From: Giesbergeria sp.
Lineage (GTDB): Bacteria; Pseudomonadota; Gammaproteobacteria; Burkholderiales; Burkholderiaceae_C
Assembly: GCA_017985015.1 (NCBI GenBank)
Contig: JAGNYI010000010.1
Location: 1-64,000 of the forward strand
Direction of reading: 5' to 3'
Length of the DNA: 64,000 nucleotides
Part shown: in pieces, positions 30,734 to 32,314 of the stretch
How the letters are laid out: the number at the start of each line of letters is the position of its first letter
Position numbering within the stretch: the first letter of the stretch is position 1
The notes under the pieces: generated by a model
Told to the model about the DNA's origin: nothing
What the model saw: only the letters and a program-made list of their open reading frames with translations
Database searches by the model: none
Program-made: the position numbers and the translations under genes

Positions 30734-32314
30734 ATGACCTACCTGCTCGCCCTCGACCAAGGCACCTCCAGCTCGCGCAGCATTGTTTTTGATGAGCACG
30801 GCCATATCGTGGCGCAAGCGCAGCGCGAGCTGACGCAGATCTACCCCCGTCCCGGCTGGGTGGAGCACGATCCGCGCGAGATCTGGAGCAGCCAGTTGGG
30901 CACCGCCCGCGAAGCGCTGCACAGCGCAGGCATCGACGCTTCGCAGCTGCGCGCCCTGGGCATCACCAACCAGCGCGAGACCACCGTGCTGTGGAACCGC
31001 AAAACGGGCGCACCTGTGCACAACGCCATCGTCTGGCAGGACCGGCGCGCCGAACCCGCATGCGCCGAACTGCGCGAGCGCGGCCATGCCGACACCATTG
31101 CCGAGAAAACGGGACTGTTGATCGACGCCTATTTTTCGGGCACCAAACTGCAATGGCTGCTCGACAACGTGCCCGGCGCGCGCGCGCAGGCCGAACGCGG
31201 CGAACTGGCCTTCGGCACGGTGGACAGTTGGTTGATCTGGCAGCTCACCGAAGGCGCGGTGCACGTCACCGACGTCACCAATGCCTCGCGCACCATGCTG
31301 TTCAACGTGCACACCAACGCCTGGGACGAGGCGTTGCTTGCGCTGCTGCGCATTCCTGCTTCGCTCCTGCCCAAGGTTCAGCCATCCAGCAGCCACTTCG
31401 GCGAAGCCACCGCCAGCCTGTTGGGCCACCGCGTGGTCATTGGCGGCGTGGCGGGCGACCAGCAAAGCGCCTTGTTCGGCCAGGCCTGCTTTGTGCCTGG
31501 CATGGCCAAGAACACCTACGGCACGGGCTGCTTCCTGCTGATGCACACCGGCAGCGCGTTCCGGCGTTCGGAAAATGGCCTGCTGACTACAAGTGCGGCT
31601 CAAATTGCCCCCACGCTTGTCGCTTCGCGTACTGCGCTGCCCCCCGAGGGGGCCGTGCGCGGCTTGGGGCGGCCCGGCGTCGCGCAGACCACCGCGGCAC
31701 CCCAGTTCGCCATGGAAGGCAGCGTCTTCGTCGGCGGCGCCGTCGTGCAGTGGCTGCGCGACGGCCTGCGCGCCATCTCGGCCAGCAGCGAGGTGCAGTC
31801 CCTGGCCGAGAGCGTTCCCGACGCCGGCGGCGTGATGATGGTTCCCGCCTTCACCGGCCTGGGCGCGCCCTACTGGCAGCCCGACGCGCGCGGCACCATC
31901 ACTGGCCTCACGCGCGGCAGCACGCTGGCCCACATCGCCCGCGCTGCGCTCGAGAGCATCGCCTACCAGAGCGCGGCGCTGCTGCAGGCCATGGCGCGCG
32001 ACGCAGTGGCGGCGGGCAGCGTGCCGGTGACCGAACTGCGCGTGGACGGCGGCGCCTGCGTCAACGATCTGCTGATGCAGTTCCAGTCGGACCTGCTCGG
32101 CATTCCCGTGGTGCGCCCGGCGGTGGTGGAAACCACGGCACTGGGGGCGGCCTACCTGGCCGGGCTGTCCAGCGGCGTTTATGCCAGCACCGACGAACTG
32201 TCTCGCTTGTGGCGCGCCGACCGCCGCTTTGAACCCACGCTGGCGCCCTCGCGCGCCAGCGAGCTGATGCAGCGTTGGGAGCACGCGGTGCGCCAGGCAA
32301 CGCTCGCGCCCTGA
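30734..32314 (+). CDS. glpK: Glycerol kinase with in-frame repeat insertion
   Basis: A 526-residue FGGY-family kinase that makes glycerol 3-phosphate from glycerol and ATP. It begins [20 protein letters not shown], carries [12 protein letters not shown] and the catalytic Asp in [10 protein letters not shown] (D242), plus [15 protein letters not shown]. The ENGLLTT and [17 protein letters not shown] blocks are normally about ten residues apart; here they are about 40 apart because residues 287-324 are encoded by repeat-like GC-rich DNA. Total length exceeds the usual ~500 by about the size of the insert. Function is probably kept, as the insert lies in a surface segment and the frame is intact. 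It follows glpR. Confidence 0.93.
31600..31690. repeat. GC-rich dispersed element inside glpK
   Basis: The segment runs from CCCCCACGCTTGTCGCTTCG through GCTGCCCCCCGAGGGGGC to GGCTTGGGGCGGCCCGG, with the inverted repeat CCCCC-GA-GGGGG. I recall near-identical sequence as a common intergenic element in Comamonadaceae. No other copy occurs in this window, so identity as a dispersed repeat is from memory, not from a search. It is in frame and has no stop. Confidence 0.6.

Follow-up and report, generated by a model that had tools for sequence, protein, structure and literature searches.

Glycerol kinase extended in frame by a dispersed, probably mobile hairpin repeat of the Comamonadaceae

Why does the glycerol kinase encoded in this 64,000 nt stretch of DNA (the window) carry a segment that most same-genus glycerol kinases lack? 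The first-pass annotation had described GlpK as about 30 residues longer than its family at 31592–31705, and had ascribed the excess to a dispersed Comamonadaceae element inserted in frame, an arrangement that it considered unusual and possibly able to change allostery. The host gene product scores 687.8 bits against the TIGR01311 profile (cut-off 590.35) and 727 bits against NF000756 (cut-off 498). By eye, a DeoR-type regulator gene lies directly upstream of glpK (29933–30700) and a ProC-like gene directly downstream (32319–33221). The features at the level of the gene are as follows.

30734–32314, + strand: glpK, glycerol kinase, 526 aa, host of the insertion (open reading frame list; TIGR01311 and NF000756 profiles)
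31604–31687, + strand: inserted segment, 84 nt or 28 codons (codon alignment against 12 insert-free same-genus glpK genes; peptide match)
31608–31690, + strand: match to the repeat model R1, model positions 1–83 (83.9 bits, E 1e-15 in the window)

When 16 glpK genes of the genus were aligned by codon, four proved to carry the insert and 12, which encode 497–499 residues, to lack it. Relative to these 12, the window protein has 28 extra residues (291–318, between ..TTSAAQ and TT..QFAMEGS), so that the earlier figures were close and the gain is in frame, as had been claimed. The boundaries 31604–31687 represent the best placement; as the flanks AAQ and VAQ look alike, they may be off by as much as ~9 nt. 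We considered this 9 nt likeness as a target-site duplication and dropped the idea, as the five genes for which empty sites are available show no consistent duplication. The insert is 84 nt long in the window's genome (G000), G018, and G025; that of G007 is longer and includes part of a second repeat unit, giving a protein of 529 aa. Repeats are prone to misassembly, and G000 consists of 110 contigs, but the same place is filled in four genomes, one of which (G025) is assembled in only 3 contigs. The 12 genes without the segment likewise speak against ancient GlpK sequence. An origin as an assembly or contamination artefact, or as an ancestral part of GlpK, is therefore practically negligible.

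On the E. coli GlpK chain, the insert maps to a loop between residues ~292 and 296. AlphaFold2 gave a confident fold for the window protein, in which the sole stretch of at least three residues with pLDDT below 50 was 295–318, inside the insert. The insert is thus predicted to be a disordered loop. The known GlpK sites for FBP and IIAGlc presumably lie elsewhere, at about 230–236 and 472–481. The suggested change in allostery found no backing, as no result ties the insert to regulation.

We then searched for the segment elsewhere. BLASTN with window positions 31560–31740 returned 15 further copies in the same genome (E ≤ 5.4e-7), several of them in tandem; these were found with the window segment alone, before the model R1 was made from 12 own-genome copies, that of glpK among them. 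When R1 was run against the whole window, the GlpK copy was matched at E 1e-15 and the second-best match reached only E 0.026; the match of the GlpK segment to the repeat model is far above chance expectation. R1 identified 18 copies in G000, copies in 17 of 26 same-genus genomes (185 matches), in 257 of 299 genomes of a family sample (118 of its 126 genera), and in 48 of 399 genomes from a sample of the order, with 13 of the 48 being from the window's family. Among the carriers are Delftia acidovorans NBRC 14950 (19 copies), Variovorax paradoxus ISL-3 (40), Caenimonas koreensis (26), two Hydrogenophaga MAGs (36 and 38), and Acidovorax SCN 68-22 (12). No copies were found by R1 in Advenella, Azohydromonas, Pandoraea, or a MAG labelled Bordetella parapertussis, the sample holding no true Bordetella. 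A plasmid search with the segment gave three records (Azoarcus, Variovorax, and Acidovorax), in which the best places carry no annotated gene. The segment is indeed a dispersed element of the Comamonadaceae, as the first-pass annotation had proposed; of the two findings that it had named as fatal to this view, a segment shared by every close relative and a lack of further copies, neither was obtained.

The repeat unit is ~84 nt long and comprises a 5′ part (CCCCCACGCT..), a fixed hairpin (H2), and a variable hairpin (H3), located in glpK as follows.

31639–31653, + strand: hairpin H2, GCCCCC-CGA-GGGGGC, read as L-P-P-E-G-A in the GlpK frame (97–99.8% of cells paired)
31655–31663, + strand: 5′ arm of H3, GTGCGCGGC (pairs with 31679–31687; covariation)
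31664–31678, + strand: conserved loop part of H3, TTGGGGCGGCCCGGC (repeat alignment)
31679–31687, + strand: 3′ arm of H3, GTCGCGCAG (8 of 9 positions pair with the 5′ arm, one as G-U)

The stem sequence of H3 varies between copies, with pairing retained. In sets of 12, 38, and 78 distinct copies, the alignment cells changed on both sides of H2/H3 pairs numbered 29, 79, and 258, as compared with 12.7, 24.4, and 77.3 after shuffling (500 shuffles each; the largest set, A3 with 118 copies, was left out). The structure was drawn from the 12-copy set and the alignments of 38 and 78 copies were fitted to the model, so that both of these are biased towards it. Three measures, namely both-side-changed cells, the share of paired cells, and the covariation score, exceeded all 500 shuffles in all three sets. 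Two others were not clearly beyond the shuffles: the number of pairs changed on both sides was equalled or exceeded in 273, 1, and 22 of 500, and that of pair types in 145, 289, and 455 of 500. The single-strand fold of the GlpK copy was no stabler than those of shuffled sequences (z −0.06), and Rfam gave no matches at E ≤ 5 over window positions 31500–31800. When all sites were compared, identical H3 stem pairs recurred at unrelated sites; therefore, both arms of H3 are part of the element. The same recurrence ruled out a candidate origin in which one arm is copied from the target. Target-site duplication, a feature of MITEs, was not consistently seen in the five genes with empty sites, where the ends of the element are ambiguous.

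These features resemble those of BRE, the Beta-proteobacterial repeat element, which passages of Hot et al. (2011, PMC3110155) describe as a scattered repeat of ~90 bp (75–91) with a mean GC of 69%, arranged in tandem with zero or few nucleotides between units, and present in Acidovorax, Delftia, Polaromonas, and other Comamonadaceae as well as in Bordetella and Azoarcus. Our repeat has a GC content of 0.64–0.87 over 118 R1 matches and adds 84 nt to glpK and 81–87 nt at four other sites for which empty counterparts exist (see below). It recurs in tandem with periods of 83–87 nt over 31 intervals, and its distribution is Comamonadaceae-wide and sparse elsewhere in the order. It is therefore probably the published BRE, to which we liken it by description and not by sequence. 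PMC3110155 is the only prior description of the element that we found in the open-access literature searched. Those passages note copies wholly inside coding sequences; section 14 of the paper does not treat reading frames, the proteins that are hit, empty sites, hairpin covariation, or recurrence.

We asked how often the element lies within genes. From the 185 matches in the genus, 156 copies at 125 sites were analyzed, and three sites were too short to classify. A site was counted as coding if, by a codon-usage score on 240 bp each side, one coding frame ran through both flanks. By this test, 63 of 122 sites were in frame inside genes, as compared with 1088 of 1931 random positions in the same loci (56%), so that the in-frame insertion in glpK is not the rarity it had been taken for. 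At fourteen other sites the best frame agreed between the two flanks, but a stop or a low score kept them from passing the strict test; they were counted as non-coding, and some of them may be genes. The element was open in the host frame at all 63 coding sites, which represent 28 protein groups, orthologous sites included. In other genera, genes held 17 of 71 sites as against 836 of 1485 random positions (56%); these sites are from 68 loci with hosts named by eye, and were taken from top-scoring copies, which may over-represent young intergenic ones. The element thus avoids genes in the sampled sites of other genera, and the absence of avoidance is peculiar to the window's genus or to sampling, because the 71 are top-scoring copies and the 122 include orthologous repeats. 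Binning the copies by score did not support the notion that the share inside genes rises with age.

Of 30 host proteins compared with NCBIfam, 24 exceeded a family cut-off and 6 reached none. The identified hosts include GlpK, ThrC, LigA, ValS, RecJ, RecG, LeuS, MurD, PurL, UvrA, CobQ, PurK, a polyamine aminopropyltransferase, CreD, PrpF, acetoacetate-CoA ligase, MetX, HrpA, and beta-N-acetylhexosaminidase. Four of them were compared with distinct insert-free sequences of the same genus: LigA (81 nt gained; one filled, 19 insert-free), ThrC (84 nt; two filled, 19 insert-free), RecJ (87 nt; one filled plus a copy at a contig end, 22 insert-free), and ValS (84 nt; two filled, 20 insert-free). 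At the empty sites the flanks are joined with at most a few other residues, one LigA sequence being 9 nt and four ValS sequences 6 nt longer than the others. As judged from these alignments, the four inserts appear to be clean in-frame gains. The copies are scattered and polymorphic between close relatives, and many lie in frame, on either strand, within genes that are unrelated to one another and often belong to the core. We also noticed that in G004 (L397) the ValS loop that is filled in G017 and G019 is lengthened in frame by 18 nt of unrelated sequence, which suggests that this loop may be generally tolerant of insertions.

Some loops appear to have been entered more than once. ThrC carries the element in the sense orientation in two species of the genus and in the antisense orientation in another genus (L454), a few residues away in the same loop; opposite orientations in one loop require separate insertions. 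In Hydrogenophaga sp. STE_132, the GlpK loop that is filled in the window also contains a copy of the element, with the unit beginning at a different point, and another Hydrogenophaga has no insert, so this insert was apparently gained separately. Among 80 named loci, 22 GlpK loci were aligned, and inserts occurred only in Hydrogenophaga sp. STE_132 and in the record of G007. Sites in ValS and PrpF and two in CobQ are common to the window's genus and other genera, which could reflect common descent or transfer. In cobQ of G126 (L464), two separate in-frame elements occupy sites that members of the window's genus use singly. The cross-site alignments of UvrA and acetoacetate-CoA ligase mix different sites and are uninformative between them.

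Copies inside genes use almost exclusively two of the six reading frames of the element, one per strand. We anchored each copy on H2 and grouped 62 usable coding sites into 33 clusters by flank similarity, excluding one degenerate site without H2. H2 was read as LPPEGA in 13 of 14 sense clusters (simulated mean from open sense frames, 6.0; p 5e-5) and as an APSGGS-type peptide in 17 of 19 antisense clusters (simulated mean, 7.3; 0 of 20000 simulations). The remaining two antisense clusters read PLGGQ, one of them mixing two frames, and the third antisense frame was used by none. In a translation of one example copy, at least three of the four little-used frames gave Arg- or Cys-rich peptides. 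Hand counts from translations of other genera gave the preferred frame at 7 of 7 sense and 8 of 10 antisense sites; four of these 17 coding sites are in genes also struck in the window's genus. Tandem spacing differed by location, being 84 nt in 14 of 14 intervals inside genes, while 3 of 17 intervals outside genes were not divisible by 3.

The two-frame pattern could come from insertion biased towards a codon phase or a target motif, and left flanks do repeatedly look AATG(T)GG-like, by eye, just ahead of CCCCC. However, the frame follows neither junction: it was most uniform at H2 (27 of 28 sense and 30 of 34 antisense sites), with lower agreement at the left end (23/28 and 22/34) and at H3 (18/28 and 17/34), these counts being of sites and not of independent clusters. 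A filter on the peptide therefore fits better than phase-biased insertion, which we consider quite unlikely.

Taken together, the extra GlpK segment is very probably a copy of a mobile, non-autonomous hairpin repeat of ~84 nt, found in the Comamonadaceae and some other Burkholderiales, and is carried as a passenger tolerated in a surface loop. The repeat would insert at many places, and copies within genes would survive if the added length is a multiple of three and the site is a surface loop. The surviving frame would give a flexible peptide of Gly, Pro, Ser, and Ala rather than the Arg- or Cys-rich peptides of other frames, and the peptide would not be conserved as protein once inserted. A further possibility, on balance doubtful, is that the element is itself adapted to coding, its 28-codon unit having evolved so that one frame per strand gives an innocuous flexible peptide (LPPEGA.. 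or APSGGS..), which would enable colonization of essential genes and tandem expansion.

The fate of the peptide was addressed in 28 orthologous pairs, which are not independent. Differences at the three codon positions were 57/50/56 in 757 insert codons and 741/556/2478 in 10290 flank codons; this flat pattern indicates that the peptide is not kept as protein. In six GlpK pairs, the insert differences were 26/20/9, with no third-position excess, such that the peptide changes freely. This bears on whether the insert is an adaptive loop specific to GlpK that tunes its regulation. The segment is in frame in four genomes, and the apparently separate gain in Hydrogenophaga could be seen in the same light, but a freely changing, predictedly disordered peptide, encoded by an element that also occupies 28 protein groups of the genus, leaves this reading a slim chance at best.

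The DNA of the inserts has changed little. With one pair per site group, 102 of 1484 sites diverged in coding-pair inserts (6.9%), as compared with 224 of 2012 when flanks of 60 bp were taken and 1201 of 10172 with flanks of 300 bp; third positions of the flanks diverged at 24%. In non-coding pairs the figures were 90/628 for inserts, 191/921 for 60 bp flanks, and 707/4353 for 300 bp flanks, one non-coding group being spurious (L127, two copies of one locus). The RecG inserts of three species and the PurK inserts of two are identical, though their flanks have diverged. Low divergence is not predicted for a purely neutral passenger, and could stem from constraint on the DNA, from young age or recent arrival, or from horizontal spread. 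The first of these would mean that the DNA is under selection as an RNA hairpin, or as a protein-binding site in mRNA or DNA, and useful within genes. The low, codon-independent divergence and the identical RecG and PurK inserts would be in keeping with it, as would a difference between the glpK copies of G007 and G000 (L012; window 31655–31687), where the H3 stem changes as TGCACGGC/GCCGTGCA → TGCGCGGC/GTCGCGCA, an apparent compensatory change within a coding gene. Recent or horizontal arrival may, however, account for the low divergence, and the GlpK copies of G018 and G025 score poorly against R1 (59.7 and 63.3 bits, vs 83.9 and 90.9) and have mispaired stems. We regard selection on the DNA as unlikely. 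In ThrC, CreD, and LeuS, divergence is lower in the 60 bp beside the insert than across the 300 bp flanks, hinting that filled sites may have spread by recombination; ValS shows the opposite.

REP/REPIN sequences, moved by resident Y1 (RAYT-like) transposases, are likewise dispersed hairpin repeats, and of the 17 genus genomes that have R1 copies, 16 also have a Y1_Tnp match. However, such a match occurs in 6 of 9 genomes without copies as well, and the contrast hardly discriminates because the three genomes with neither are 61–67% complete. G011 has 7 copies and no Y1_Tnp match, and R1 gave no matches (E ≤ 0.01) in 12 stretches of 10–20 kb, drawn from 12 genomes and each surrounding a Y1_Tnp gene (the strongest one, or one for each genome), where a REP-type pair would be expected. 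Unlike REP/REPIN, moreover, the repeat is often inside genes. Membership in a REP/REPIN–RAYT system is accordingly highly improbable. Our own guess, a tentative one, is that a trans-acting enzyme may mobilize the repeat by acting on its hairpins in single-stranded DNA at replication forks.

In its behavior, the repeat is closest to the Rickettsia palindromic elements (RPEs; Ogata 2000, 2002, via PMC10969869), small palindromes of ~150 bp that are found in frame in unrelated protein genes. Passages of PMC10969869 present RPEs as a case of unusually high in-frame palindrome insertion and call a similar course elsewhere "conceivable". By analogy, our repeat behaves in an RPE-like manner without being an RPE: it has a hairpin structure, by the pairing measures that exceeded 500 of 500 shuffles though not by the two that did not, and it is in frame at 63 of 125 sites in unrelated genes. 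It differs from the RPEs as described in those passages in being ~84 nt long, GC-rich, read on either strand, and at home in Burkholderiales (Comamonadaceae); as for the encoded peptide, it has a preferred frame per strand and yet a flat codon-position pattern after insertion. The ERIC and RU-1 to RU-3 units (Delihas 2007, PMC2759123) are small open-frame repeats fused in frame at 24 annotated enterobacterial loci; they have other hosts and lengths of 103–168 bp, several are in small or terminal frames, and the passages concerned describe no two-frame rule.

The Comamonadaceae offer a second large natural set of in-frame mobile palindromes, in which all five genes compared have relatives that lack the insert. 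This makes it testable which loops of LigA, ValS, UvrA, and GlpK accept insertions, how new protein segments originate, and whether translation shapes a selfish repeat. It is also a warning for annotation, since the inserts disrupt domain matches of core enzymes.

Two loci of the window's genome carry more than one unit. In contig C101 (L040:2663–2829), two tandem 84 nt units lie in frame right after the start codon of a gene that is trpF by eye; this double insertion failed the strict coding test and is outside the coding count. Contig C71 (L043:2099–8473) holds a UvrA frame of 2125 aa, apparently of double length, with five NCBIfam UvrA stretches, in which the element occupies three separate places, once as a triple tandem, once as a single copy, and once in decayed form (31 bits).
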